From Phaeotremella fagi (taxonomy: Eukaryota; Basidiomycota; Tremellomycetes; Tremellales; Phaeotremellaceae): DNA of 64,000 nucleotides. The notes under the pieces were generated by a model. That model worked only from the letters and a program-made list of their open reading frames with translations. It ran no database searches and was not told where the DNA came from. This document shows positions 1 to 43,537 of this stretch, piece by piece. A program made the position numbers and the translations under genes. The stretch is taken from NCBI GenBank assembly GCA_001599715.1, contig BCHU01000004.1:1-64000 (forward strand), in the 5' to 3' direction. Each line of letters begins with the position of its first letter. Within the stretch, counting starts at the first letter, position 1.

Positions 1-31
1 CTAACCCCCTAACCCCCTAACCCCCTAACCC
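1..31. repeat. Telomeric repeat, chromosome end
   Basis: Four consecutive units of CTAACCCC (the last one losing its final C) open the window, i.e. TTAGGGGG on the opposite strand. This 8-mer is the telomere repeat known from Cryptococcus. The array passes directly into unique sequence after base 31, so the window begins at, or within one short array of, a chromosome end. Confidence 0.93.
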
Positions 32-1181
32 TTTGGATATTCGACTTGTTTGTAGCAATCGAAGATGTGATGGTCGCAATGTCGGCTTGATGGAAAAACC
101 AGTCTTGTTGGTACGAATATCTATGAATCTGAAAACATCAGTTTGGAATCTAAGTGTTGAGCTTACAGCATCAAGCATAACCTCAAAGTCAGCGGTTTGG
201 ACAGCTTGAATGGCTTGTCACTACGATCGTGTCAGTGACGATCAAAAGGCTATGCTCTACTCACATCCTAACCTGTCCATCATCTTGGCGCACACTTCGT
301 TATCATCATTAGATCACTCTGCAAACACTGGTCAGTGTTCTGGATGAACGCTCTTCTGTTTGACAAGACGATGCCCTCCTAATCACTGGTGTATCAGAGC
401 AGGTTATTTGTCACTGGGAATGTTTTGATAGAATAGATCTGTTTCGTTTCTTTTCGAACCACTTGGGTTTGTTGTAAAGATGATGAGATATGATCGTTAC
501 ATTTGGCGAAATCGTGAGTGTATTGCTTCTCAGGAATACACCTGATTCGTTAGGTAAGATTCAATATGGTGACACAAGGATTGGTTCACTGGAGGAAGAG
601 ATAAATGGCTTTGATGGATAGTTGAAAGGGGGTTTGATGGCGTTGACGACGATGTGCAGGTCGATGGAAATGTATTGTAGAAAGACATGGAGACTACCAA
701 GGAGATCTAGACGTGTTTAGGGAGCTTTGGTATGAGATATAGAGTGATAGCGTTGATATTAGATAAGTATGATGTTTAGAAGATGGATGTAAGATAGATA
801 GATGTTTAGATGTTGACGACGAGAATAAGTATGAGAGCAATTGTGGCACTCAAGTCTAACACTTGGATTCTTCGACTGCTGTACTAATTCTTAGCCTGCA
901 CGGCGCATAAAGACATCAATAGAGAGCTGATGGTAGGAGTATAGATCGATACGGGAAAGATCAATAGTGTACGCTATCACTCGAGAGCAACTTCAAATGA
1001 TGTGAATACAAACCTTTTGTCTTGTATCGATCTTTGCGATTTTTAGAATTGCGATTCAGTCAATTTGCTAAAATACTATATTGCTGGATTTCTCAATCAT
1101 TGTGCATGACTCCCTGGGTCCAGATCTAAAAGGTTGAAGTCTCAGGATGTTATGGTTTATAGACATAAAGCTTCTACCTCG
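32..1181. other. Subtelomeric non-coding stretch
   Basis: About 1.15 kb with no convincing coding frame on either strand. It is AT-rich with short GATAGATA/TAGATG-like runs around 740-830. I see no transposon ends, RecQ-helicase-like telomere-linked coding sequence or tandem array. The first gene ends immediately to its right. Confidence 0.6.
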
Positions 1182-7935: not shown

Positions 7936-9808
7936 ATGAACGATATTGTAGAATTACTCGATCTCCCAGATCTCATTCAACTGATCAAATACGCCGGAGT
8001 CCTAGCTGCACTGGCTGCTATTGGTAAGTAATTGGCATAACACAGGCTAACATCGCTCCAGGCTTCGCTTTCCAATACCGGAATAGAGGTATCTTGTCAT
8101 CATCTTCATCAAATAAATCTATACCGGGTCCTGTAGGAAAGTTTTTAAAAGGCAATGTTCACGAATTGAACACCAAGGGTGCAGCCAGTTGCAAAGCTTG
8201 GTGGTCCTTGTATCAACGCTACGGTCCGGCGTACGAGATGACGATCCCGTTCTTCAGACTTCACATCATCAACCATCCAACTTATCTCGAACACATTCAG
8301 AAAGAGAACAGTAAAAACTATGTCCGGGGTGCTTTCACTCGAAACGTGTTTGGAGCTCTCCACAGAACCGGCATTTTTGTCGCTGATGGGAAAAACTGGC
8401 AGAGTCAACGAAAAGCAGCGAGTCGAGCTTTCAGTAAGCAAAATTTCGAAACACACATCACTGCATCCTTGCACTATTGGCTGGAAATTTTGATGAAATT
8501 ACTGGATAATCTGGACAAGGAAGGACGTTCATTCGACTTTCAAGAATTGATGGGTAGATTCATGTTTTGTTTGTTCTTAAAGATAGCTTTCCATGAGGAC
8601 AAGCTGGCACTGGACGTCATGTCTGAAGATCCTAAAAGTTTAGACTCGATGCCAGAATGGATAGAGAGTTTCGATCGAGCTCAAATCCGTAAGTCAGAAC
8701 CAGTCTAAATCTGATACGGTTAGTCTTTGATCGTCGACGACGAGACCCACTTTGGAAGCTCACTGAATTCGTTTCCGGCGAAAATAAAACAACCAAACGA
8801 GCTGTTGACCTGTTCTATCAACAGATTGATGGGTTGATCAAACAACGACTGGACAAGATAGCCTCAGGATATAAGCCTGACCCCGATGCAGGAGTGGATC
8901 TACTCGATCTTTTCCTCCAGTCTACGACTGATACTTACCAGCTTGGTGGAATGATTTTCAGCTTTTTATCAGCAGGCCGTGAGTATAGACGTATAATGGT
9001 ATCTGACTCTCAGGTGATACCACTGCGTTTAGTACATCCTGGCTTATGAAAGAGCTGTTCCACAAGGATAACGCTCATCTTGATGCTGTCAGCAAGATAC
9101 GACAAGAGCTACAAGATTTAGGGCTGGCAGGAGACTATCTTACATATGGTGATGCTCCGGTAGGTTCAAGTTCTACAGATTCTATGTGATATCACTCATT
9201 CCGATTTAGAAACTGAAGTTTGCTAATGCTATGTGGGACGAGACTGCGCGTCTGAATACTGTCTCTCCTGCAGGTCAGATGGAAGCTGCTGCAGACGATA
9301 TCCTTCCAGCTATCCCTGAAATAAACATGCCCCCACGCCATGTCAAGAAGTAAGTTTTTTGTGCTCTGCAGAGTTTCGGCTGATCTATTAGAGGTGATAT
9401 TGTAAGCTACCAGAATTATGTTCTTTCGAGAATGCCAGAGGTATGGGGAGATGATTGTGCAATTTTCAATCCATATCGGTGGTTCAAAGACAACGGTGAA
9501 AGTGTTTCGTTCAGTCCGTTCAGTAAGTCATACGTGTGCTAAGCGGCATTGGACTCACTTCTACTCAGAGTACCATTCTTGGAACGCTGGTCCTCGTAGC
9601 TGTTTGGGTAGAGCACTGGCTACCTACGAAGGAATTGCAATTGCATGCGCCGTGATCCAGCGTTTTGATGTCACTTTAGACGACTCCTCCAAGGTGTATG
9701 AACCTTTGGCTGCGTTAAATATGGTATGTGTTCAAGGTTTAGCTCTTTCTAACATTGGAACAGGGAATTAAAGACGGTATTTGGATGAAAGCAAGACCAC
9801 GCAGATGA
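7936..9808 (+). CDS. Cytochrome P450 monooxygenase
   Basis: Spliced from about eight exons. An N-terminal hydrophobic anchor (LIKYAGVLAALAAIGFAF) is followed by the proline-rich hinge IPGPVG. The I-helix oxygen motif AGRDTTA is created by splicing at about 8978. The ExxR motif appears as DETARLN, and the PERF-like region as PEVWGDDCAIFNPYRW. The heme loop is WNAGPRSCLGR, with Trp in the usual Phe position and the Cys ligand intact. The protein ends GIWMKARPRR. The layout fits the fungal CYP52/CYP63-like alkane or fatty-acid hydroxylases, but the exact family is not assignable by eye. It would hydroxylate a hydrophobic substrate at the ER, fed by the reductase and cytochrome b5 encoded just downstream. 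Confidence 0.88.
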
Positions 9809-24379: not shown

Positions 24380-24492
24380 GGTGGGGAGAGTAGGAAGACA
24401 GAGATGTGGAAATTACTATTTAGTATAATAGAATATATATAATATGCAGATCGTGCCGTCATCTAAACTTCAAAGAATTCTGGAGTGGCAAT

Positions 24493-24543
24493 CCGCTTGT
24501 ACCGCTTGTACCGCTTAACCCGATCCTTAAGCGCAGTCCGCTT
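24493..24543. promoter_or_regulatory. Four CCGCTT elements before the cyclase gene
   Basis: CCGCTT occurs at 24493, 24502, 24511 and 24538, the first three as 9-bp direct repeats (CCGCTTGTA, CCGCTTGTA, CCGCTTAAC). They lie 65-115 bp before the cyclase start codon. The reverse complement AAGCGG contains the CGG triplet bound by Zn2Cys6 regulators. The same hexamer recurs in the other promoters of this cluster. Confidence 0.65.
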
Positions 24544-24607
24544 AACTTAAGCTAAACTTTCCCTTATATAAACAAGTCGTAGACAACAACTGTCCCACAG
24601 GCCAACG

Positions 24608-25812
24608 ATGGTATCCCCTGCTATTCCTTACCCTACGTTCGACCAACTTCCTGTCAAAAAAGATGGCCCCAAGTACAACGCCTGGGGATTGTACGGCGAA
24701 GGAGATCAGCTTGGAAGACTTGTATGTAATCTGACCCAAGTCATGTCCACTGACTACGCTGAAGAACATGCTCACCCCCGATGTTGTCCTTCGGGCAGCT
24801 CAAACACAGATCAAGACCGGTGAAAGGGTATCGCTGAATTGGTCCATGTTCGAGCCGAGCTATCCCAGCTATGGTCGTAAGAAGATGACGGTCAATCTGA
24901 TCAGAAAGTATCCGAGACACAATCACGACGACGAATGGTCTTTCAACACTCAATCGTCCAGTCAGTGGGACGGTTTCCGACATTATGCTTATCAGATGCA
25001 TGGGGTGAGTGCTGGAAAAGATTCGACCTAATGTTAGTTGTACTACGACGGTGTCACGAATGAACAGATCAAAGATGGACCTGAGCCAAACGGTATTCAT
25101 CGTAGGTCTCACACAATGTCAATCTGATGATAGACGTATCGAAGGAAGGTATTGTTGGACGGGGAGTCCTGATCGACTATGCTGCTTACTGTAAAGCGCA
25201 CAATTTGCATCCCAAGATATTCGAAAAGACTGGGGTTACGGTCGAGGATCTGGTCAAAACTTATGAATGGCAGGGTATGAAGAAAGAGGATTTCTGGGAG
25301 GGCGATATCCTCTTCATCCGCTTCGGTTATACAGAAGGCTATTACAATCTCACTGATGAAGAGAGAGAATGGTAAGTTTGACTGTATGCTCAAGCTAATT
25401 CTCAGGATGGAGGTGGAGCACGTCGGTCCTAAAAGCAGACAGATTGGAATGATTGCTACCGAAGAAAGTCTTCGATGGCTTTGGGAGATGAAGTTTTCAG
25501 CTGCAGCAGGAGATACACGGTGGGTCAGAATTCGAACATTTGCTGATTTAAAAGTGCTTTTGAAGCTGGATCATTCTTCCCCACCGAGCACGAATCGTAT
25601 CACATCCATCCGGTTTGCTTAGCTGGATGGGGAATGCCGCTAGGGGAGTTGTTTGATCTCGAAGAGTTGTCAAAACGATGCACATCTTACAACAGATTCA
25701 CTTTCTTTCTAACAAGCGAGGTGTTGAACGTGAGTTTTCTGTTCGGGATCGACTGACGATTCAGGTTCCTGGTGGGGTAGCGAGTCCACCAAACGCTTTA
25801 GCGATTTTCTGA
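24608..25812 (+). CDS. Cyclase-family (kynurenine-formamidase-fold) hydrolase
   Basis: Matches the fungal cyclase-like metal hydrolase family. After splicing it reads WGLYGEGDQLGRLNMLTPD, SQWDGFRHYAYQMHG then LYYDGVT (the HxGTH-like metal region is degenerate, as in the fungal subfamily), and near the end HPVCLAGWGMPLGELFDLEEL, RFTFFLTSEVLNVPGGVASPPNA and AIF as the final residues. At least five introns. No signal peptide. Relatives hydrolyse ring or amide bonds of small acids such as N-formylkynurenine; the substrate here is unknown. It sits at the left edge of the putative catabolic cluster and has the densest set of CCGCTT elements. Confidence 0.87.
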
Positions 25813-26214
25813 GAGTGCACTGCTTACTATGTACTTACTCCTATGCACTCTTTGTCGAGACATCTCTATTCCTGGTAGCCCAGAGCCTGTTTTAAGGATC
25901 ATGGCCCATGCGTAATCGCGCATTTCAGAGCTGACTGTGAGGAAACGGTAACGTTTGGCTTTCAATTCAAGCGCTCCTTGGCTACTCCCACGTCTTGTAT
26001 GTATACTGTAGAGACAAGACCATCCTGCAGCACATGTATCTCCACTAAGTAAACAAGAGAAAATCCATACTCCTTGGATACAAAAAACGACACCAACCTC
26101 AATCCTTTGGTAGGGGAACCTCGATACGGGCAATTGGCATATACTCCTGTGCAGCGTGCATGTCCGTTTCACCGAAGCCTCTGTAATCGTCAACTTTGCC
26201 CTTCTCCCCAAAAC
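25813..26214. other. Intergenic, convergent 3' regions
   Basis: A stretch of 402 bp between the convergent cyclase and AtuA-DUF4387 stops. Nothing recognised. Confidence 0.4.
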
Positions 26215-28300
26215 TCACCCTTGAACCCGTGGACGGGGGATCGTAAACTTGAAAGCCCTGGCTGGGTCAAAGAACATGCAAGTTTGAACATCACCAGGTG
26301 AGGTGTTGTAAAGCTTAGCCAAAGATTTGGCGTTCAAGACACCAGTTTGTTGGACCCAACGGTACTCTTCCTCGCCAGTGAACATGACATCGAATGTCAC
26401 CTCAAACGGACCTGCCTACGAGGCTCAGTATTTCATAAATCAGGGACTCACATTTTTGCTTCGACAGATACGAGCAATCTCTGATATCGGTGCACTCTCT
26501 CGACCTGAGGCCTTGAGTTCCTGAAAGTTTGGTTTCGCCGGAGCTTCTGTTACCCAAGCTGCGATTTCACGCGATACCTTGACGTATGGATCCTCGACGG
26601 TCTTGGCGGGAGCTGCACCGTTGGATGTACCGTTGGTGCCGTTGGTGTGGCCGTTGGCGCGATTTACACTGACAGAGTCTGATTTGATATCAAAGTACTC
26701 TATTGGGAAGGGTGACAAAGCGTCATCGATCGGAATAATGTGATACACGTTGAACTCGCAGAATTCTCCAAGAGCTATTTCGAAGGGTGCATAGGGGAAC
26801 GCAACGTTACCAGAATTTGCCATCTAACGTCAGTCAGGCAAACGTTCCACTCACCTGACCAGGATATGGAGTATGGAGCAAGGCAACTCTCATCCTGTTC
26901 CCAATCCAGTTGGCCCTTTTCTGTGAAGGAGAGAGGATCTCAGCCATTACCATCAACTCGTGAGAAAGCTTGTCGGCATCAGGCTCGAGAGCACCCATAA
27001 CCTTGCGTCAGTCAATTCCAGTCTCTACAACTTACTCCGTTCTTTCCATAGATATGCCATGCGACCTTGTCGCTCTTGGGATCGTAGTTGTCCATCATTG
27101 ATAGAACCGTCTTTTCAACGAATGACAGCCATTTCTTATATCAGCAGTGATTCATTAGACAAACTCACATCAATCTGTTTCATCAGGATTGGATCTTTGA
27201 TACCTGCCTGAACTATACAACGGAACCCAACAGGGCGAGCACCTTCAAGCTTGATCGTATACGGCTGCTGATTGAAGATAGCACCAGAGATACGAGTTGT
27301 GCGATGAGAGATTGCTTCAAATTTACTCTTCGTAACGTCAAGGATCCCTCCTGGGCCAGGTAGAAGATCTGGTCTGGACTTTTCGTACAGAGTGTGTGCT
27401 GCCACTGACAAAGGTATGCAACGTTCGAGGGAGTTGACAGGCTAAAAGGTCAGCTCCGTATGACGTGGTGTGCTTACGGTCAAATCAAAGCTATGTTTGC
27501 GAACCGTGGCTCTAATGGATTTCCCTCGAGGTAACGCACAGAGTGCACCACATTCACAGATCTCAAGGTCAGTTCCCTACTTCTTTCCAAACTTACCTTT
27601 CCCATATGCCATGCAACTCCAGGGTCTACTCCGGCCATTTGGCAAACCGCGGCATAAGGAGCTGGATCGTATGCTCTTCCTGTGATATGTCAGGCGGACG
27701 CGGAGAAGCATACTCACCACCTAGTACGATATCGGCACCCCCTTTCAAAGCTTCAATGAATGGCTCAGAACCCATCTGAGCGACCACTCGAGGTGTCAGA
27801 TCGATTTCTTCACAAGTGAGTTCAGGAACTGGTCCACATGGTGTAACCGTACCCGCTGCAATGTGTTGTTTGATAACGTCCAATGGAATTTCCGAATAAA
27901 TTTTTGCAACCTTGAAGCTGTATCCATTTTCGCGCGAGATGGTGTCGACAACATCTGCGAACAGGTCAACGTGGGAATTACTTCCATGTCCACCAGATGA
28001 TCCAAACAGGACTTTGAAGCCACGTTCATGTGCCATCTGCAAAACGGGTCGAATATCACGCAAGTAAGCATCTCGTGGAGCAGTGGTGATTCCGAAGCAG
28101 AGCTTCTGTGGCCCACTGAGACTGTCAGGCGGGTACTAAGCTGGTACTCACGAGTCGGTACTCCCAGCGTCTGCGATAATGAAAGACCCGCTAGGCATTC
28201 GACGACATTCGTCGACAAATGGGGTGATGGGATATCCGTACCCGATTTGCCCAACTGGGGTAATGATTTCAACTAGTATTTGATCGTCACTGGAGGTCAT
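26215..28300 (-). CDS. AtuA (acyclic terpene utilisation)-DUF4387 fusion protein
   Basis: The N-terminal two-thirds is the AtuA/DUF1446 domain: ILVEIITPVGQIGYGYPITP, FIIADAGSTDSGPQKL, VLFGSSGGHGSNSHVDLF, GGADIVLGG followed after an intron by GRAYDPAPYA (partly at the 27600-27690 exon), then LLPGPGGILDVTKSKF and FRCIVQAGIKDP. A Thr/Asn/Gly-rich linker (NGHTNGTNGTSNGAAPAK) joins it to a DUF4387 domain at the C-terminus (ISEIARICRSKN, TFDVMFTGEEEYRW, VLNAKSLAKLYNTSP). In bacteria these two are usually separate neighbouring genes beside CoA-linked terpenoid catabolism. It starts MTSSDDQIL. Probably an intracellular catabolic enzyme. Two AAGCGG elements lie about 105-125 bp upstream. Confidence 0.85.
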
Positions 28301-28402
28301 GTTGGGAATATGATGTTTGTCATGCTATTGGTCATCGGTGTATATACTTTATAGCTCATAGTGTCGAGCGACAGCTAGCGAAAGTAAGCGAGAGTAGGCA
28401 AT

Positions 28403-28423
28403 AAGCGGATTCAAATTAAGCGG
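28403..28423. promoter_or_regulatory. Two AAGCGG elements before the AtuA-DUF4387 gene
   Basis: Direct copies of TAAGCGG-type sites at 28403-28408 and 28418-28423, spaced by 15 bp, followed by a degenerate inverted TTCGCTT. They lie on the promoter side of the AtuA-DUF4387 start at 28300. Confidence 0.6.
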
Positions 28424-28557
28424 AAGTTCGCTTGAAGGTCATACTAAATGCATACATCTACCCTGAATACCAAGGAATATCGCCCACAGCATGTTCATTG
28501 GCGCCAAACTCCCCCAAGTCCAACCTCATCTGTTAGTCCGCATAAACATAGCTCAAC

Positions 28558-30619
28558 TCACATATTGTCTCCCTGTAGCCATGATGGTTCGAAATCGAAC
28601 AGCGGCAATTCCATTAACCCAGAGTGTGGAACGTGTTCTAGAGCTGCAAGGTGAGGCAATATCCAAATCAACACTTACAATTATCTTGCGTTTCTACTTG
28701 CCTGCCGTCCTGAGGAATTATGGCGCTGTAATCAGAAACATGAGATCCACGAGCACGTTTTGCAGATGCCAAACAGTCGTGGTAAAAGTTCCCTAAACCT
28801 GATCCCAATCAGACAAATAGCCCAATGACTCACCCATTCTTGATCTAATCTCTCCAAGGTCGCCCGTTTTCTTGGAATTTCCATACAGATTGCCATCAGC
28901 CCGTCTTTTCAGTGTGTCTAATAGCGTGAAGTTGATCAATTTCGCCGATCTAGAGTATTTATCGTTGCCAAAAATACTCATACACTCGGTCAGATTTACT
29001 GCCGAGTTGATCACGGGGATGACTGGTTCCATGTCGAGGTACTTGCCTTCCACTGAGGCCATGACCCTCAAAAGCCCAAGCTTTTGTCGTTAGCTTCATT
29101 TGGCATAAGACGTACCGATGCCAACTTCAATCCATGGACAGCCGACCGTGGCCAGTAGAGTAAATGATGCTGGGGCTGCTCCACAGCCAGACGGATCGCT
29201 CTCAACGCCGTTTCCACAGTTTGTGCAGCTAGATGAGCTCTTAGAGAGCCTGTGACACTGTTGAGCTGTAGACCAAAACACGAGAGACGTATGCGTGCCA
29301 CTAGATTGACGAACTGCAGATGTATTGGCTGTTCCCCGACCCGTAGCTCGATATCCATCCATTCCCGATCCAGCGATTGCCACACTGAAACGGCTGTTGG
29401 ACCATCCATCTGCCCTGTTGGTGATAATGGTGAGTTACCCAACATCATGGCGACCTTGTTGATATGCTGCGCAGTGGTCAACCCTCGAAGGACCACGTCG
29501 GGAATGTCCACCAGCCAATCAGGTCTGTTTGGTTTACCAGCAGCGGCTGAAGCTTGAAGAGAGACCCAGTCGTCCTGCAGCAGTGATGGCATGCCGCTGT
29601 CACTCGCAAGCCTAGCATAAGCATGAAAATACCCCAGACAACCTACATGTAAGACAGGTAATGGCATGTAACCCAAGCTAGTGTTCTTTCTCGCCCATTC
29701 ATCGACTCTGCTAGCGCCTGAAAAGATCGACGTGAAGTGAATTCAAACGAGTGGAAAGGACGATGGAGACCCATTTGCATTCCGGTCTGCACCGCCTGGG
29801 AAACTTAGCCTGAGAAACAGATTGATACTCACGACGTTGATGAAATGCCACGAACGATCATCTTTCTGGCGCACAAAAGGAAAGCCCCATTCGCAAAGCA
29901 GGATCAAACCTTGCACAGCGCAAAGCGAACGTCCTGCCCAGGTGCTAAGAGCAAAAGCCATAAGCCTTACCTGCTCCATGATTTCTAAAGCTTGTTTTTT
30001 GCTGAGCATCATCTCCGCCAAGGGTTCAAACATTACTGTACGGGCAGCAACACAAATTATAGTCCAAAATAGGAAACGTTCTCCAATGTACACTTCCACT
30101 GGCCCACGACGACGTAGTAGTACAGGGCAAAAATTGTGATATTTATCGAAAAATATGTCAAAGAAGAACTGAGCTTGAGCTGTTGTTAACACTATTTCAC
30201 CAATGGTGAATTGATCCAGCAGCGTGTCAATGATACCGTTACCAAGGGATTCGTCCGGCTCGTCAGGTATCTGGTTCTGAGGTAGAGAACCTGGTTGTGA
30301 GGTCGACAGTGTAGAGATGACTTGCGTTGCCTTTTCAGTACGACTAGGTGTCAACCAGCGCGCTCTCGCTGCTACTCACCGACGAACTCTCGTGAAAGTG
30401 GGATCAACATGACATGGCAAAGCCTTGCTCAAGCAGTTGGTACAACTCGCCAAGGATCCTGGAATGGCGTCACTGAAGTAATCAGTCCACATACAATCAA
30501 GCCCGCATACCACTTTGCTTTCGCTTGTCGACAGGAGGTGCAAACGAAGCGCGACCCTAATGATTCAGTAAAACTCTAAAACTCACACAGGGTGACTAAC
30601 TCTTCCGCTTATTGCCCAT
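28558..30619 (-). CDS. Zn2Cys6 transcription factor, likely cluster-specific regulator
   Basis: The zinc cluster appears only after removing two short introns: a first exon reading MGNKRKR joins SRFVCTSCRQAKAKC, which joins DAIPGSLASCTNCLSKALPC. That gives C-x2-C-x6-C-x9-C-x2-C-x6-C after an arginine-rich start. The rest matches the fungal-specific transcription factor middle domain (FFFDIFFDKYHNFCPVL, FLFWTIICVAAR, QALEIMEQVRLMAF, VQGLILLCEWGF). The C-terminus, again spliced, ends FDFEPSWLQGDNM, an acidic-aromatic activation-type tail. It is divergent from a sugar-type transporter and surrounded by catabolic genes whose promoters carry AAGCGG/CCGCTT, so it is the natural candidate to bind those sites. 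Confidence 0.87.
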
Positions 30620-30922
30620 GGGGCTTCCTTCAGTAGTTTCTGATCCTTCTAGCGGTATTGAAAGCGAGTTGAACATTGTTGTAGACAATGAATCAAATCA
30701 AGTCGCAACAAGCTATTTTGTGGGTCATAAGCGGCGAACCGCTTACGTTTTACGGGCACATGACTTTCCGTAAGCGATTTGTTGCGCTTCTTAGCTAAAG
30801 TCTGAGGTGAATAAGCGATTGGTTACAACTCCATTTCAAAGACTATCATATAAAACGGGAATGGACTGTCGATAAACATACCTCAAGTTCGCCGGATAGA
30901 GTGGTATATTCAAACCCCTCTA
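30605..30922. promoter_or_regulatory. Divergent promoter, regulator / MFS transporter
   Basis: About 300 bp between two start codons. It contains the perfect palindrome described separately, and TAAGCGA half-site-like copies near 30772 and 30812. One further CCGCTT at 30605 lies in the first codons of the regulator. A TATA-like ATATAAAA lies near 30850 for the transporter. Confidence 0.6.
30728..30745. promoter_or_regulatory. Perfect palindrome TAAGCGG-N4-CCGCTTA
   Basis: An 18-bp inverted repeat, seven perfect bases on each side of CGAA. It contains CGG and CCG triplets separated by four bases, the arrangement bound by dimeric Zn2Cys6 factors. It lies between the divergent regulator and transporter genes. 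Confidence 0.7.
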
Positions 30923-32936
30923 ATGACAAGCACAATGGAACGTTCCCGTTGGTCATACACTACCAAAGCTCTTTGGTTCACGTGTATAGTCTACGCTTCA
31001 GCGGATATCTTTTTCGGATAGTGAGTAGATATGAAAACCACCAATTAACTCTCCAAGTGATTCTGGCATGTTTGGCTCCTTACAAGTCCTTCCTGGATTT
31101 TTGAATCAGTTCGGAGAGTTGATATCTGGGAAAATGGCGTTGTCACCGCAGAGATCGTCGATCATGAATTCAGGTAAACGTCATGTTCCACCTACAACTA
31201 ACAACACACAGTCGTCTGGATTGGTAAACTCGCTGGAACGCTTTCGTTTGAGCCACTCGCTGAACGTATTGGTTTTAAATGGTGCTTGGTTATCACTTGT
31301 GTCGTTCAGGTGGTCGCAACAATAGGTAAGTCATGATATGCAGTCCAACGCTGACAAAATTAGTTGAAATCACTGCCAGGTGGGTACAAGCATTAAACTC
31401 TCTGACCCTTGTAGTGGATGGATACAGTTCACCGTTGGTAGAACTCTGTCATACACTGCCAGTGGGCTTGTGGAGACAACAGTGCCCTCTTTCCTAAGTG
31501 AGATTGCACCTGCTCCCGTGAGATCAATGTTGTCTGGATCCATCGTTTTTGTTTTGGTGATTGGGCAACTATGGGCTCAACTCATGGGGAGGGCGTTTGC
31601 TACCGACACAACAAATACAGGCTGGAGAGTGGTTGTTGGAATGCAAATTGTCCCGGTTCTGTTCATTGTCATCTTTTTACCTTTCACTTGTGGTAAGTGC
31701 ACGAAAGGTCTTCTTTAACAAACCCAGACTCGCCTCGTTGGTTGGTAACTCATCGAAACAGAGAGGCAGCTCAATACGCTCTAGACCGTGTTCGACCTAA
31801 AAGAGATATCGATGACGGTTCGACGACTGTGGAAATGGAAATTACCATTCAGGCCATAGAGGAAGCAACGGTTCAAGGGAAGGGATCTTGGTTCGAACTG
31901 TAAGTAAAGTCGCAATGTAAGCGGGTGCTGATTATCCTAAGCTTCAAAGGCAATTACAGACGCAGATCTTGTGTGAGTAAGCAGAACCACCGTCGTCTAA
32001 CGTTAGATTGCAATGTGGATGTTCATTTTCCAGCAAATTAACGGAACACAATTTATCCAGAGTTTTGGAGCTACGTAAGTCTCAAGCTGTATTGTACTGA
32101 TTAGGTAGCTTTTACAAAAACATGGGTCTCGGTGACCTCGCGTTTGACTACACTTGCATCACTTCAGGCTGTATCGTCGTCGCTCTTGGAATCGCACTGT
32201 ACCTCTACGACAAATTCGGTCGCCGACCTCTTATGATAGTCGGGGCTGTACTTGAGGTTCCCTTAATGTGCGTCGTTGCTGGTGTTGGAGGGGGAAGCAA
32301 TCCCAGTCCCAGTGCGATCAATGGTGTTGTAGCTTGTAACATTCTGTTTACGTGCTTCGCAAGGATTGCTACGGATCCACCTTCTTACATTATCTGCTCG
32401 GAGATAGGAGGAATCCGGATGAGGAAGAAGAGTAGGTAGAGTCAAGTACTTGCTAATAACGCGTTAGTTATGACCTGGGCTACTAGTTGGCAGGTCGTCG
32501 GAGCGTTTGTCGTTAGCTACTCGAGTCCGTATCTGTTGGCTTCTCCTGGTGCAAACCTTGGAGCAAAGGTTGGCTGGATTTACGCAGGAACGTCTTTGTG
32601 CTGTCTGATTTTCATCATCTTCTTTGTACCTGAGCTCAAGAGTCGTAGTTTGGAAGAGATCGATGAGCTTTTCGAACGGTGAGTGGTCGTTGAAATTCAC
32701 AGTACTTATTGAACAGAAACCTCTGGGCTTGGCAATTCGCCAATGCAGACACCAGCGGTCTGGGAGCTCGCATTGCCGAGCTCCAGGGATCTACAAAACA
32801 TCATCATTTTGAAGCTAAAGACGTCAACAACGTTGGAACAGAGGAAAAAGCAGTAGGTTCAGGAGGCCAGTTGACTTTTGGCGAAACCATGCCAACTTTG
32901 TATCAGGCGAGCGTCACTCACATCGAGGAAATATGA
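30923..32936 (+). CDS. MFS sugar-type transporter
   Basis: Sugar-porter family of about 12 helices built from about eight exons. Marks: DIFFGYDSGMFGSLQVLPGF at helix 1, VGRTLSYTASGLVETTVPSFLSEIAP (the PxYxxEIAP-like motif, altered to SFLSEIAP), SPRWLVTHRNREAAQ after helix 6, FQQINGTQFIQSFGATFY at helix 7, DKFGRRPLM and PELKSRSLEEIDELFER near the end. These are hallmarks of hexose, quinate and related uptake carriers. It starts MTSTMERSRW and ends in a cytosolic tail. Within the cluster it is a good candidate for uptake of the pathway substrate or a conjugate. It is divergent from the regulator and shares its palindrome-bearing promoter. Confidence 0.87.
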
Positions 32937-33150
32937 GGCGACGCCGGGGATAATTGGAGATTGAAAAGTTGGTTTCTGGGGATATGTGCTTGATGGCTGT
33001 CATTGGATGACGCATGTGTATGATTTTGATGAATGACGATGTGAGAGATAGAAACAGTAGACATCGTTGCGTTTGTGCACAGCAAATGATAGCTCAACTT
33101 GTGAGACATCATCACTTTACCGTGTAGAAGGTGGTACAAATTTGAAAGTC

Positions 33151-34516
33151 TTACAACCGTCCCAATACACTCCTACTGTCATACGTATAAAGCTCCCTTC
33201 GAAGTTCACTCGTCCCTCCAAACATGAAATACACCCGCATGGCAGCTACCTTGAACAGATATCCTAGCCTCGAACCTGATCCAGTTTTACGCGAGTCTCC
33301 ACTGGTTTTGGTGAGAGCTGTGACCAACTTGAGACGTTTTCGCCGTTCCTCTTCGTAGGTTGTTAGAGGCGCGCCGTCCAGCAAAGTACGGGCAAGAAGC
33401 TAGGTTAAGTATGGTCCAGATGCTAACTCACCTCGGCATCCTCGAATGCTTGTGCAGCTCCTTGGCCTCCAGAAGGAGGAATAGCTAATGTCAGTAGAGC
33501 TTGATTACGACTTACCGTGTGCAGCGTCCCCAATGATGATGAGTCGGTGGTCGTGCCATTTGGGAATATCCCCAACGCTATATCTAGGGTAAGCTTGAAC
33601 AGTACGTAACCTACTGAGGCCAGAATCTGCAGTCCTCCACTTTGGCTTCTCTCACTATAGATTCCATTGGATCTCCCCAGTTGACAAGTTTGGCTTTAGC
33701 CATGTTGAGAGCTTCACCAGATTGCAACATCTGCGCCCACCCATCACGATCTCGTTCTTGTTCCACTTCCAGGGTCACGAACCAAGATGCGATATTTTGA
33801 TTCTTGGTTGGATCACCAAAAGGCCTATGGTCAGTGTGCTCGTGCTTTCACTCACATTAATCCAACAGTTCCGGTAGGACCAAACAACATTGCTGGAAGT
33901 GACAAGGAGCCTAGAGTGTCGACCTGCACAACCCCACCTATGGATGCCACTCCCTCGTATCGTGGTGTGGGAGAGTCGTCACCCAAAAGAGACTTTCGCA
34001 CAGCGGAATGCAATCCGTCACATCCTACAACGTAATCTGCAGACGATTCGTCGCCATTGGCGAACTTCACCGTTGCCGAGGTGTCGTTTTGACTAACTGA
34101 CACAACCTGATACCCGTAATGGACAGCAGCGTTAAACTTGTCCAACTGCTTGAGTATAGTTTGGTGAACAATTGACCTTTTGACTCGGATCGAAGGGTAG
34201 CCAAACTGCTCCACATTCCCCATTGAAAAACCACCCAACCTATAACCCGTCGATGTAACCATGTGGAGAGTGTCAAACACTGCACCATGTTGTTTCACCT
34301 CCTCCCATACACCAAGATGATCCAGTACTCTGACAGCGTTTGGTGCGAGAGTGATTGCACCTCCAATATCTCCAGCTTCAGTCCTGAGTTCGTAGATATC
34401 GACTTGGGCTCCGCTTTTGGCCAGAAACAGACCTAAAGAGGATCCAGCTGGTGTCAGTGGGGTCATTAAGAGTACCTACCCAAACCACCACCACATATGA
34501 TAACTTTTATAGGCAT
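33151..34516 (-). CDS. FAD-dependent monooxygenase, salicylate hydroxylase-like
   Basis: Class A flavoprotein monooxygenase. The first exon gives MPIKVIICGGGL, the GxGxxG FAD-binding start, completed across an intron into GLFLAKSGAQVDIYELR. Then come NAVRVLDHLGVW, ADYVVGCDGLHSAVRK (the DG motif), and HRLIIIGDAAHAIPPSGGQGAAQAFEDAE over two junctions (the GD motif and active-site segment). The length of about 400 residues is normal. Such enzymes hydroxylate aromatic acids using NAD(P)H and oxygen. It is divergent from the FMO-like gene. A CCGCTT site lies in the shared promoter. Confidence 0.88.
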
Positions 34517-34576
34517 TGTTGGTTGTTGAGATGAAAGGTGTGTGAGAGGATGTTATTATCCCGTGGTGATTCGGTT

Positions 34577-34582
34577 CCGCTT
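34577..34582. promoter_or_regulatory. CCGCTT element in monooxygenase divergent promoter
   Basis: A single CCGCTT in the 263-bp gap between the two divergent monooxygenase genes, the same hexamer seen before the other cluster genes. One six-base match is weak alone; its value is the recurrence. Confidence 0.4.
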
Positions 34583-34779
34583 CGCTACCTACGTCGCGCC
34601 TTCGTCAATGGCGTTGGGAGGTGTTGCTGTGCAGTCGTCTGACCTGAGACCATAGATTAGATTAAGCTTACAGTACCTGACGTAATCCACTTATGCATAA
34701 CCATCGGTCAAAGCCAGAATGGCGTGATATTGAGCCATAAAGAAGATCGAAATTCAGCAACCATCCACAGTCATCCACA

Positions 34780-36386
34780 ATGACTATAGATCCACTGCCT
34801 GTGACTAGAATCGCTGTGATTGGCATAGGTTCTGCTGGACTGTCTCAACTGAAACAGGCCAAAGATGCGTTCAACCGAGTGACTAATCGAACAAGTCTCG
34901 AATTGGTTGGTTTCGAGAGTAGAGACGAGGTTGGGGGTTTATGGTAGGTAAATAAATAGCTGAACTGATGCCAGGAATTACGACGGTGACATTGAGCCAT
35001 TTGCTGAAGGTACAAAATCTTCCGGTGGATACGTAAGATACCCTGTTGATGGTCAAGATCCTACACCGTTTTACGACAATCTAAGAGCTACGCTACCTGG
35101 GGTGAGTCGAGATTTGGCTAAGCTGATGATAGGACCTCATGGCTTTCAGAGATTTGAAGTTTGCAGAAGATGTACCAGAGATTCCCTGGGGAAGTGAGTT
35201 CAATTAGGGCGCTGCTGATTCTAGGGCAAATCTTGGAATATCTCCAAACCTACGCCAACATCTTTGACCTGAGGCGGTATATTCGATTCAACACTAGGGT
35301 TCAGAGACTCTATCTGAATCCTAGGGAAGGGCGCGGTTGGGTTATCGAATCGAACGGTCCAGCAGGCTCTGCTATCGAAGCGTTCGACTTTGTCTCTGTT
35401 AGTAATGGCCATTACAGTGATACATATTTTCCAAATCACCCCGGTCTAAGGTAGGCAAGAAGTCAATTCCACTGACGATAGTTCATTTCCCGGAGAAATC
35501 ATCCATTCCCGCGAATATCGACGTCCTGGGACGTACACTGGTCGTACAATTCTAGTCGTTGGCTCTGGCAACAGTGGTTCAGATATCGTTCGTCAAGTGG
35601 CGTCTCTAAACCTAGGTCATTACGAGAATGAGGGTACCGACACCACTCCCTTTACCACGGTCTACCATTCCATCACAGGTGCGAATCGAAACGGTTACAA
35701 TACGGAAACAGACCCATGGAGTAGCTACATTCGTCAAGTCCCTGTTATTGACAGGTATGAAGGAGGAAACATCCATCTCCAAGGGGGCGACGTGTTGAGT
35801 AACATCGACACGGTGATCTACGCCACGGGATACAACAACAGCTTACCATTTTGCAAGTCAACCGACGCTCCGTGGAACTCACTCCAAGTTCTTGAAGATG
35901 AAATTCGACCGGAAGAGCGTGTCCACGGGGCTAGATGGGAGATTGGTGGTGTAAAGGGATTGCACATGAAGGGGTTAGACGAGTTGTTACTGTTTCTAAG
36001 AGGAGATCGAAGTTTAGCCTTCCTGGGGTTGAGTAGGTTACACAATGGCCCCACTGACGTTAGCGTATCAAATCGTTCCTTTCCCGTTTGGTGAGATCCA
36101 AGCAAGACTGGCGTCGATGTTATGGGCGGGGCTACTGCCAAGTTTCCCGAAACATCCAAAACTTCCACCTAACCAAGCAGGAACGATACAACGTATCAGC
36201 GAGAGTGTAAGAGGCGAATTGATATTTAAAAACCCTTACGAATTCACTTATGAGGCGTATTTACATACTCTTCTCAAGGAAGCGGACGATATACCTGAAG
36301 TTGAGCAGTATTGGAAAGAGGTTGAACCATGGAGAATCGCGAGAAGAGCAGATACAGGGTTGAGGAAGCGGTTGTTGGGATTTTGA
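34780..36386 (+). CDS. Flavin-containing monooxygenase / Baeyer-Villiger-like
   Basis: Class B flavoprotein. The first Rossmann motif is IAVIGIGSAGLSQ. The FMO fingerprint F-x-G-x-x-x-H-x-x-x-Y-R is present as FPGEIIHSREYRRPG. The NADPH Rossmann motif is ILVVGSGNSGSDI. The C-terminal ATGY motif is VIYATGYNNSLPF. Several introns are in the N-terminal half, and the ending is TGLRKRLLGF. It would oxygenate soft nucleophiles (N or S) or convert ketones to esters. Placement beside the FAD monooxygenase suggests both act on the same substrate line. Confidence 0.88.
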
Positions 36387-36451
36387 TGCATGATTGCCGG
36401 TTGCCACCGATGACGTTTTGTAAACGATTGTGTTCATTTACAATCAACAAC

Positions 36452-37283
36452 ATGCAATGTAAGTATACCCCAAGTACACCCTAACGTCCAGTCGCAGAAC
36501 CCCCTCCAGCCTACTCAGCAACTCCCAGTTCGCAATCACCAATATCCTCCCTACCCCTTCATCTACTCTCTCGGATCGTGTCGTTCACCTTGGATCCATA
36601 CGCAACACCGAGTCGTTACTCTGGCCATGTAGAGGAAGAAAGAGTTAGGCGACTATGGGCAATGTTTAGAGCGTTACGCTGGGTCGATCGACGGTTCTAT
36701 CTAGGTAGGAGTGGTTTAGTTCTGCACTGAATATAGTCTCCACTTCGATACTGCGAACTCATTACCTACCGATTTATAACCAAAATCTTATCCCACCTAT
36801 TTCATCAGACCTCCCCACTGACATCAGCGATGACAACCAATCCATCTTCCGTCGTACCAGGGAAACAGCAGTGTTTGATCGATTCATCGCTATACGTGTT
36901 GGAGAAGACCTTAGATCGGTGGAGAGTGAATTGTGTGAACCTTCCGAGGGAGAGCGTGAGGTGTTTCTCAGGTTACAAGTGGGTGAATGCTATGACCACA
37001 CTGACTCCAGCCCCAAGCACGGCATGAGGATTTGCTACGAAGGCTGTCGCCGTTGGTCACCTCTGGAGCAGGGGGGTTGCAATTCCCACTCCCTTTTGAC
37101 AACCTCGTTATCAGTCTGAGCCCGTTGTATGCAAGTCTACAATATATCAACAGTAGTCGTTCTAAAACAACTATCATCGAAGTGAAACGACAGTCCAGTG
37201 CTGAGACGACTGTTGAAAGGCTAGAAGAAGGGTTGTGGGATGTACGTGGGGGGTTGGTGGAGCTAGGGTCGAGAATAAGATAA
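36452..37283 (+). CDS. Hypothetical F-box-like protein with N-terminal PPPAY
   Basis: Four exons joined by hand: MQ|FAEPPPAYSATPSSQSP, a segment PISSLPLHLLSRIVSFTLDP resembling an F-box helix start, then FYLVSTSILRTHYLPIY, the exon ending EVFLRLQ, and the last exon PQARHEDLLRRLSPLV to LVELGSRIR. The L-P-x-x-L-L-x-x-I pattern resembles an F-box-like domain, so it may be a substrate adaptor; similarity is weak. Residues 6-9 read PPAY, a PPxY motif for WW domains. No other domain is recognised. Confidence 0.65.
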
Positions 37284-37314
37284 TCTAACGCGCTTCACTT
37301 CACTCTTGTACATA

Positions 37315-38361
37315 ATGCATTTACCTATAATCTCAATATCTCCTTACCTCACCACCTCCACACCTCGAGACAGATCAGCAACAGCAAAGAGCTTACACCA
37401 AGCATGTCGAGATATAGGCTTTTTTTATCTCAAAGTCGACGACTACCTGTCGTCTGATGAGATGATTCAGGTGTTGGCTTCTGGGAGAGAGTTCTTTGCT
37501 CGACCTCAGGAAGAAAAGGACTTTATTGGGTTAGAACACAGTGATGGGGTCAGAGGTGAGTCAGAGTCATACCCCGCTTACAATAGGATACCAAAGATTG
37601 CACCAAAACGTCACCCAAGGCAAGGCAGATCATCACGAAGGGTTGGATCTCTACGCACCGTCACCGTTTCCATTGGGAAACACACCACTCTCCGGTGTGA
37701 ATCAATGGCCAAAAGAACCAACCCACCTCCAACCTAGACTAGAAACATGGATAGACAAGATGAAAGTCCTGGGGATGGCTGTTATGCGAGGAATGGCTGA
37801 TGGCTTGGGAATGGACGAGGGGGAGTGGGAGCTTTTAAGGTCTCTGGTGGATAACAGCTTTTGGGTAATGCGTGTGATTGGTAGGTCGTGCATTGACCCC
37901 ACTGATCCTAGGATATCCACCGCTACCAGACGGAGCAGATGGAATAAGTTGCGGTAGTCACAAAGATTATGGTTGCTTAACGTAGGTCAAAACTAAACCT
38001 CTCTTACGCCAGATTCCTCCACGCCGACCCATGTCCATCCGCACTTCAAGTCCTTACCAAAACAAACGAATGGTTAAACGCAGACCCCATCGCTGGCTGT
38101 GTCGTTGTGAATATTGGGGAGATGTGGGAAATCTGGTCGGGAGGGTTATACCAAGCAACACTTCATCGTGTCATCCATCGATCCCCTGTTTATCGAGTTT
38201 CCATCCCTTTCTTTTTCGAACCGAATTTTGATGCTAGAGTGGAAGTGTTGGAAAGTGCTAGAAGGATTGGGAAAAAGGAGGGCAGGGAGATTGTGGACAG
38301 TCAAGGGGTGATTTACGGAGACTTTTTGTTAAACAAAGTCAGTGGGAATTTCAAATACTAG
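37315..38361 (+). CDS. 2-oxoglutarate/Fe(II)-dependent dioxygenase, isopenicillin-N-synthase-like
   Basis: The N-terminal DIOX_N region reads LPIISISPYL and CRDIGFFYLKVD. The C-terminal double-stranded helix domain carries the iron ligands: after splicing, DGISCGSHKDYGCLTFLHAD (H-x-D), and later LYQATLHRVIHR (distal His) with YRVSIPFF (R-x-S for 2-oxoglutarate). Introns of about 31 nt flank the iron-ligand exon. The start MHLPIIS is preferred over an ATG nine bases upstream. The substrate is unknown. It follows the putative catabolic cluster but its promoter has no clear AAGCGG element, so membership is uncertain. Confidence 0.87.
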
Positions 38362-42364: not shown

Positions 42365-42808
42365 ATGTCAGGTTATAAAAAGACCAATTTCGTCCCAATC
42401 TCACAATACAGCTTCGGATGTGGTCCAGAGTCCAACATATTCGGCGAATGGCAACTATTAAGTGGTCTGTCGACCACCACATACGAAGCATGGTTGAACA
42501 AAAGTATTATTGGCTCATATCAGGGGGAAGAGTTTGTTTTCAGCAAAGGTGATTCACTCCACCGAGATTCGAAAAACCAACCTTTCAGACATCACCGTTA
42601 TGGATTTTACAGCAGTCAACACTCAAAGCATACCAAAGGTATTCAATTTTATGAACCTGGATGTAGTTTCGATCGAGAGGGTTTCACAGTTAAAGCGGTT
42701 CTGGACGGTTATTGTGATGCCGACGAGATCAAGAGTTTATTAACAGCTTTTGATTTAGAACAAGCGGGTGGCGATGGTAGCGGTGCTGGTGTTCAGCAGA
42801 ACCTTTAG
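42365..42808 (+). CDS. Family B member 3, diverged
   Basis: Intronless, 147 residues, start MSGYKKTNFVPI in a GCCACC-ATG context. Shares with the two previous genes the opening (YKKT-x-F), S-I-I-G-S-Y-Q-G-E-E-F-V-F-S-K-G-D-S as in SAIVYQLGEEYVW-KGDS, S-K-H-T-K-G, and Y-C-D-A-D-E-I-K-x-L-L-T-A-F-D. It lacks the acidic linker and the CxxC tail, ending GAGVQQNL. A diverged third member of the tandem array. Confidence 0.7.
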   Translation: MSGYKKTNFVPISQYSFGCGPESNIFGEWQLLSGLSTTTYEAWLNKSIIGSYQGEEFVFSKGDSLHRDSKNQPFRHHRYGFYSSQHSKHTKGIQFYEPGCSFDREGFTVKAVLDGYCDADEIKSLLTAFDLEQAGGDGSGAGVQQNL

Positions 42809-43537
42809 GGAAATTTAACGATATAAAGCGGTATTCGAAGTAGAGTTCTTGTAGTGAAATTACGTATGCAGAAAGGTTCTTGATCCATCCATGATTGTAG
42901 GACGTATTGCAGTAGTTCTACCGACACTTCGACGTACTGACCAAGCCTAACACGACGTTGACTGAAGTCGGAGTTAGAACTTGCAAGTCTCCAACAATCC
43001 TCAATTGTAGACGAGGTATGATTCGAAAGGATGAACAGTTGAGATCTTGGGTGGAACGGGATGAACAAGGGTTCCACACAATTGAGGCCAACTTTCGATG
43101 GAATTGATTGGATGGTGAAATCGAACATCCATAAGTTGAACAAAAATGCGAAAAAATAGAGGGGATGGTTTGGGTTTGCTGGGCTTTGTTTGAAGGATGG
43201 GAATGGTGAGGTCATGACGAGGGTCGAGTCATACGAGACGGCTTGAGGTGTGGGTTCTAGGTGGGAGAGTTGTGGATGTCAACATACCGCCGTTGTAGTT
43301 AAACAGCCTCCCGTTGACCGTGAGATATCGAGACACCTATGAAGTCAGTGGAACGGGAATCATTGTCAATTGCTAACAAAGATAGTTGTCAGTAAGGATG
43401 ATCGTCAGAGTCAGTTCAAGTATTATCAGTAGTGTATACACCGTATACGGTCGCACGCTGTCCTCAGAATCAATTTATATTCGAATAATATCATCACATG
43501 GTACAACCAAAACACAACACGAAACCTATGCAAACTA
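42809..43537. other. Intergenic or 3' part of the ARPC4 gene
   Basis: A leftward open frame of 136 residues (42805-43215, no domain, no family match) fills much of this stretch; I do not support it as a gene. A leftward coding-like segment around 43229-43340 (VNGRLFNYNGGM) could be a last exon of the ARPC4 gene. Confidence 0.35.

Follow-up and report, generated by a model that had tools for sequence, protein, structure and literature searches.

Six adjacent genes at positions 24608–36386 of a stretch of Phaeotremella fagi DNA (hereinafter, the window, i.e., the initial 64 kb of contig 4; the genome comprises 22.6 Mb in 24 contigs) raise the question of which of them form a catabolic cluster, how far the control by a transcription factor encoded among them extends, and what compound would be degraded. 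A preceding sequence-only reading had proposed that a Zn2Cys6 regulator controls all six genes through AAGCGG/CCGCTT sites for the use of a terpenoid or aromatic substrate. According to our analysis, it is moderately likely that four of these genes, encoding a cyclase-fold hydrolase, an AtuA-DUF4387 fusion protein, the Zn2Cys6 regulator and a major facilitator superfamily (MFS) transporter, constitute a subtelomeric catabolic cluster for a citramalate-type acid under the adjacent regulator. The evidence comprises a promoter motif shared by these four genes, partial synteny in other fungi and the similarity of the fusion protein to a solved citramalate lyase.

Gene content of the locus

The contig begins with CTAACCCC telomere-like repeats (window 1–40); therefore, the window appears to represent a chromosome end, and the cluster looks subtelomeric, approximately 24 kb from that apparent end. 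Short-intron gene models yielded seven clean proteins (window 24608–38361). The introns of these genes were mostly 31–44 nt long, with a single 66-nt intron in the MFS model; models with introns of 36–140 nt gave poor proteins and were dropped, whereas clean proteins were obtained when shorter introns were allowed. For the AtuA-DUF4387, regulator and flavin adenine dinucleotide (FAD) monooxygenase models, one of two penalty settings was picked by eye, and the cyclase intron 25093–25133 was set by hand. All six gene types named in the sequence-only reading were recovered by the gene models and Pfam: Cyclase PF04199; AtuA PF07287 with DUF4387 PF14330; Zn_clus with Fungal_trans; Sugar_tr; FAD_binding_3; and a protein similar to flavin-containing monooxygenases (FMO-like). 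The four genes of the proposed cluster and their promoters were as follows:

24380..24607, no strand: cyclase promoter, with 4 AAGCGG and 3 TAAGCG
24608..25812, + strand: cyclase-fold hydrolase (PF04199), 327 amino acids (aa), 7 exons (24608–24721, 24765–25004, 25038–25092, 25134–25371, 25406–25519, 25555–25729, 25765–25812; introns 33–43 nt); gene model, Pfam
26099..28300, − strand: AtuA-DUF4387 fusion, 627 aa; gene model, Pfam, PDB match
28301..28457, no strand: AtuA-DUF4387 promoter, with 3 TAAGCG
28458..30676, − strand: Zn2Cys6 transcription factor, 628 aa; gene model, Pfam
30677..30922, no strand: divergent regulator/MFS promoter, with a palindrome and two TAAGCGA
30923..32936, + strand: MFS transporter, Sugar_tr family, 540 aa; gene model, Pfam

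Enzymes of the cluster

Sequence and fold comparisons identify the predicted product of 26099..28300 as a fused CmlA-CmlB-type (citramalate-lyase-like) enzyme. Residues 11–452 matched PDB 9erq_A (E-value = 1.7 × 10−96) and residues 525–622 matched 9erq_B (E-value = 9 × 10−20); thus, both the AtuA-type and the DUF4387 subunits of citramalate lyase CmlAB are represented in the fungal chain. CmlAB is known here from the entry and molecule names, and the title of entries 9erq and 9evf describes a complex of citramalate lyase, ADP and pyruvate. CmlAB was solved as two subunits, whereas the window protein is one chain with approximately 70 residues between the matched parts. The model of the Tremella AtuA protein, which is 72% identical to the fusion protein and served as its fold stand-in, superposed on the solved lyase with template modelling (TM) scores of 0.93 and 0.84 by target length. 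Among bacterial relatives, the DUF4387 gene followed the AtuA gene in all 48 loci and lay at a distance of no more than 60 bp in 47 of them, so the fungal protein is a fused version of a two-subunit enzyme.

The AtuA-DUF4387 relatives numbered at least 4204, bacteria included (the best 120 listed), and fungal members are now labelled as DUF1446, hypothetical proteins, 3-methylaspartate ammonia-lyase or CaiB/BaiF enzymes. The match to citramalate lyase gives this large family a concrete, testable chemistry and corrects the terpenoid guess invited by the AtuA name. The literature search, which left most subscription journals outside its range, found no paper on DUF4387, none joining AtuA with citramalate lyase and, from 2018 on, none combining citramalate lyase, fungi and a gene cluster. 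Separately, in many ascomycetes (P0011, P0015, P0024, P0037 and others), AtuA-DUF4387 and a CaiB/BaiF (PF02515) CoA-transferase domain were parts of one fusion protein, suggesting that the lyase reaction also exists in a CoA-linked form.

The cyclase-fold protein carries QSSSQWDGFRH at residues 101–111, corresponding to the Gln-x3-Gln-x-Asp-x3-His motif, as defined in excerpts of PMC5341072 and PMC6117287. Its residues Q101, Q105, D107, H111, R76, H272 and E285 match the active-site residues of MGS0169, a Cyclase-like metal-dependent esterase (PF04199) that, according to the excerpt of PMC5341072, has the same motif and active-site Arg, His and Glu. The four motif positions as well as the Arg, His and Glu were invariant in all 27 aligned cyclase relatives. 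MGS0169 is taken to be PDB 5ibz since the residue numbers fit with a single offset; the window cyclase matched 5ibz with an E-value of 5 × 10−23, and the Tremella cyclase was approximately 30% identical to it. The metal motif of isatin hydrolase and kynurenine formamidase, HxG[T/A]HxDxPxH, was absent from the cyclase, where the first two His are replaced by Gln.

Regulator, transporter and promoter motif

The regulator combines two features of pathway-specific Zn2Cys6 factors, namely, a six-cysteine cluster (Zn_clus, six Cys from residue 31) and a Fungal_trans domain. The transporter scored 204.5 bits against the NCBIfam sugar porter family TIGR00879, below the cut-off of 237.8. Local regulators beside a transporter and enzymes are known from fungal catabolic clusters of the quinate and nicotinate types; the arrangement here is similar, including repeated promoter sites, whereas the enzymes of those clusters are different.

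All nine promoter copies of AAGCGG reported in the sequence-only reading were confirmed in place. Four lie in the cyclase promoter (24493, 24502, 24511 and 24538, the first three spaced by 9 bp), two in the AtuA-DUF4387 promoter (28403 and 28418), two as AAGCGG-N4-CCGCTT between the regulator and MFS genes (30729 and 30739), and one between the two monooxygenase genes (34577). The shifted hexamer TAAGCG was found at 24512, 24528 and 24539 in the cyclase promoter and at 28385, 28402 and 28417 in the AtuA-DUF4387 promoter, two of the latter being TAAGCGG; the regulator/MFS promoter contains the palindrome TAAGCGG-N4-CCGCTTA (30728–30745) and TAAGCGA at 30771 and 30812.

In the three core promoters, i.e., those serving the cyclase, AtuA-DUF4387, regulator and MFS genes, TAAGCG was the top hexamer, with 10 sites in 631 bp versus 0.12 expected (P = 1.8 × 10−16), distributed 3/3/4 and ranking first among the 461 hexamer classes present (2080 possible). 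AAGCGG was second, with 8 versus 0.27 expected (P = 5 × 10−10). Both were compared with the remainder of the window, including its coding sequence; AAGCGG had been named in advance, and TAAGCG was selected as the top hexamer of the core promoters before being counted across the genome. AAGCGG also occurred within exons (e.g., 25318 and 30605) and as a trio at 42693–42831, two of the three copies being inside an open frame.

The question of whether the hexamer is equally common elsewhere was answered genome-wide for site pairs (two sites within 30 bp in 22.6 Mb, the counts being lower bounds), while the single-hexamer statistics apply within the window. Direct TAAGCG pairs were found in at least 16 places, 3 of them in core promoters (50 places for the reversed control pattern), and inverted pairs in at least 4 places, 2 of them in core promoters (control 14). 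Thus, 5 of the 20 genome places of direct and inverted TAAGCG pairs fell within core promoters, which make up 0.003% of the genome. For AAGCGG, the direct pairs numbered at least 39, with 4 in core promoters (control 58), and the inverted pairs at least 12, with 1 in core promoters (control 12); the only AAGCGG-N4-CCGCTT found in the genome was the one between the regulator and the transporter. Elsewhere in the genome, the paired motif is very rare. Beside two of the other 15 TAAGCG-pair places (C9:34908 and C21:36999), frames read by eye included no recognisably cluster-related gene.

Motif enrichment is far above chance and covers four genes, not six; for these four, the observation is stronger than the sequence-only reading had claimed. 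TAAGCGR is not known as the site of any named factor. The ten TAAGCG sites lie over the promoter of the regulator itself and the neighbouring promoters, and their binding by this regulator is predicted; with such a distinctive candidate site, the regulon is testable.

The monooxygenase pair

The genes following the transporter were as follows:

33151..34516, − strand: class A FAD monooxygenase, 402 aa; gene model, Pfam, PDB match
34517..34779, no strand: monooxygenase-pair promoter, with one AAGCGG (34577) and zero TAAGCG
34780..36386, + strand: FMO-like flavoprotein, 483 aa, in divergent orientation to the FAD monooxygenase gene; gene model, Pfam, PDB match
37315–38361, adjoining the FMO gene: 2-oxoglutarate (2OG)-Fe(II) oxygenase (DIOX_N); gene model, Pfam

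The AAGCGG copy at 34577 is not evidence of shared control because a single site is near chance level (0.11 expected) and it is without the leading T present in 6 of the 8 other copies. TAAGCG was likewise absent between the FMO gene and the 2OG-Fe(II) oxygenase gene. Among the 111 FAD-monooxygenase matches listed, many of them unlabelled, none was labelled Tremella; the best-scoring was from Kockovaella (42% identity), another member of Tremellales, and an unlabelled partial relative, P0242, was 50% identical over 80% of the length. The best PDB matches of this enzyme were tropone 2-monooxygenase and 6-hydroxynicotinate 3-monooxygenase. The second protein, labelled FMO/Baeyer–Villiger-like in the sequence-only reading, was nearest to flavin-containing monooxygenases (2gv8, E-value = 1 × 10−39) and far weaker in its match to Baeyer–Villiger enzymes. 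Consequently, the FAD monooxygenase and FMO-like genes are probably outside the regulon, and the proposed control of all six genes was not borne out, given a monooxygenase promoter without TAAGCG and the lack of Tremella-labelled proteins among the matches listed. The idea of a cluster with its own regulator and a shared promoter code is supported for four genes, by the genome-wide pair counts and partial synteny, and is not supported for the monooxygenase pair.

Relatives of the cluster in fungi and bacteria

In Tremella mesenterica, the counterparts of the cyclase (M231_05386, 67% identity) and of AtuA-DUF4387 (M231_05389, 72%) are three locus tags apart. In the ascomycete Zasmidium cellare, an AtuA-DUF4387 relative with 65% identity, P0002, appears in the annotation as a single protein of 895 aa. 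Its residues 1–260 aligned with residues 281–562 of the window regulator (34% identity, E-value = 2 × 10−43); either the annotation has merged two neighbouring genes or the fusion is real. The conservation of synteny anticipated for the cluster is thus seen in part: the Tremella cyclase and AtuA genes lie close together, and in Zasmidium a regulator-like sequence adjoins AtuA.

In a tree of 34 sequences, the window, Tremella and Zasmidium P0002 sequences were grouped with support of 100/100. This clade was next to Phenoliferia (99/95), a basidiomycete, and far from two other Zasmidium copies lying among ascomycetes. Since P0002 groups with the window and Tremella sequences rather than with those copies, transfer of at least the regulator and the enzyme between fungal phyla is suggested, which would be a possible case of a regulator–enzyme pair moving between phyla. 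The branch uniting the window and Tremella to the exclusion of Zasmidium was weakly supported (85/67), so the transfer may have run in either direction.

The bacterial survey covered 48 loci around lyase relatives, in which predicted frames were clustered and ten clusters were scanned, each through a single representative. The counts are rough, as the lyase itself was not among the frames picked in 7 of the 48 loci, and the clusters may be mixed. With this reservation, the neighbours included a LysR regulator (17 of 48), a flavin mononucleotide (FMN) monooxygenase of the NtaA/DmoA type (10), MmgE/PrpD (9), MFS (7) and flavin reductase (6), as well as clusters without an obvious link, e.g., an IMS-family DNA polymerase (19). 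The bacterial neighbours of CmlAB-type genes therefore differ from those in the fungal cluster. The window MFS had a weak match in one locus, and neither monooxygenase nor the 2OG oxygenase matched any of the 48. A bacterial operon pairing the lyase with such a cyclase was sought and was not found in these loci.

Proposed pathway and alternative explanations

In the favoured interpretation, the Zn2Cys6 factor would bind the TAAGCGR sites that recur in three promoters: the one it shares with the transporter, that of the cyclase gene and that of the AtuA-DUF4387 gene. The MFS protein would take up a hydroxy-acid in the form of an ester or lactone, which the cyclase-fold protein, as a metal-dependent esterase of the Gln-x3-Gln-x-Asp-x3-His type, would hydrolyse. 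The acid so released, citramalate or a 2-hydroxy-acid close to it, would then be split by the fused CmlA-CmlB-type enzyme into pyruvate and either acetate or one of its homologues, perhaps with the use of ATP. Another locus of the same genome, L008 (C7:1206001-1216000), resembles the window cluster in bringing together an MFS gene, a cyclase relative (at least 31% identity per segment, E-value = 2 × 10−43; first exon not called by Pfam), an HpcH/HpaI aldolase of the C–C lyase type and another Zn2Cys6 factor. It differs in having a D-2-hydroxyacid dehydrogenase and no AtuA-DUF4387 match, and its regulator had no match to the window regulator at E 1 × 10−6. As both loci pair such a cyclase with an enzyme of the C–C lyase or aldolase type, the order of hydrolase followed by lyase is supported. 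A wider and more tentative proposal, plausible although we would not yet rely on it, is that of a eukaryotic citramalate-lyase pathway, in which a fused ADP/ATP-linked CmlAB and a Gln-type esterase/lactonase would form a self-regulated cassette with a near-private binding code that moved, with its regulator, between Basidiomycota and the ascomycete Zasmidium.

Gene content, the motif, the separation from the monooxygenases by the motif, part of the synteny, and the similarity to citramalate lyase in fold and sequence were computed, and it is from them that we infer binding, co-regulation, substrate, step order and any ATP use. Several observations weigh against the favoured interpretation. AAGCGGTTAAGCGG occurs approximately 75 bp upstream of the first Met of the L008 regulator frame; because it precedes another Zn2Cys6 factor, the motif may not belong to the cluster regulator alone, and cross-talk with L008 may occur. 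Everted AAGCGG pairs had none of their 11 genome places in core promoters (control 10), and the overlapping pair places (array 24493–24544; 28385–28422) are not independent, two pairs at 28385–28422 sharing one site. The identity of the Tremella stand-in to the solved lyase was 39–41%, which leaves room for a different substrate. The window cyclase matched none of the 48 bacterial loci at E 1 × 10−3 in the sequence around each locus. The proximity of the Tremella genes rests on locus tags, with two intervening genes unseen; a Pfam scan found no regulator domain in P0002, and no Zasmidium was seen among the best 120 of 2888 cyclase matches.

It is unlikely, in our estimation, that all six genes serve one pathway in which the monooxygenases would oxidise an aromatic or alicyclic compound and either open its ring or turn it into a lactone, the cyclase would open the lactone or cleave a C–C bond, and AtuA-DUF4387 would cleave the product. 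The adjacency of the six genes, the PDB matches of the FAD monooxygenase and its Kockovaella relative are consistent with such a pathway, as are the FMN monooxygenase and flavin reductase counted at some bacterial loci. According to excerpts of PMC5341072 and PMC10470551, respectively, one Gln-type enzyme of the cyclase family is a trans-dienelactone hydrolase, and another enzyme of this family opens a ring by C–C hydrolysis in phloroglucinol degradation. However, the monooxygenase promoter has no TAAGCG and AAGCGG at chance level, no Tremella label appeared among the FAD-monooxygenase matches listed in contrast to the cyclase and AtuA proteins with their Tremella counterparts at 67% and 72% identity, and the bacterial monooxygenase belongs to a different family.

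Similarly improbable is common regulation of the four genes without a linear pathway, the cyclase and the lyase each acting on its own compound from a common nutrient source. The bacterial lyase genes without such a cyclase neighbour and the different aldolase beside the L008 cyclase relative would fit this arrangement, but the Tremella cyclase and lyase genes lie within three tags, and L008 again pairs a cyclase with a C–C lyase type, an MFS gene and a Zn2Cys6 factor. Degradation of an acyclic terpenoid, suggested by the Pfam name and the FMO-like neighbour, is very improbable and was rejected, as its support lies in a name and AtuA/DUF4387 are the two subunits of a citramalate lyase solved with ADP and pyruvate. 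The Atu pathway includes genes for geranyl-CoA carboxylase, citronellyl-CoA dehydrogenase and a ligase; none of these, nor any acyl-CoA ligase or carboxylase, was among the seven genes scanned with Pfam, to which this search was limited.

Other related genes in the genome

A second AtuA-DUF4387 gene was found at L009 (C4:1399763-1401511), with 32–60% identity by segment. It had a single AAGCGG in 9 kb, approximately 3 kb past the gene, and none near the gene start. Two more cyclase relatives were located near a contig end (C12:4823-5842 and 8656-9728), on opposite strands and facing apart.

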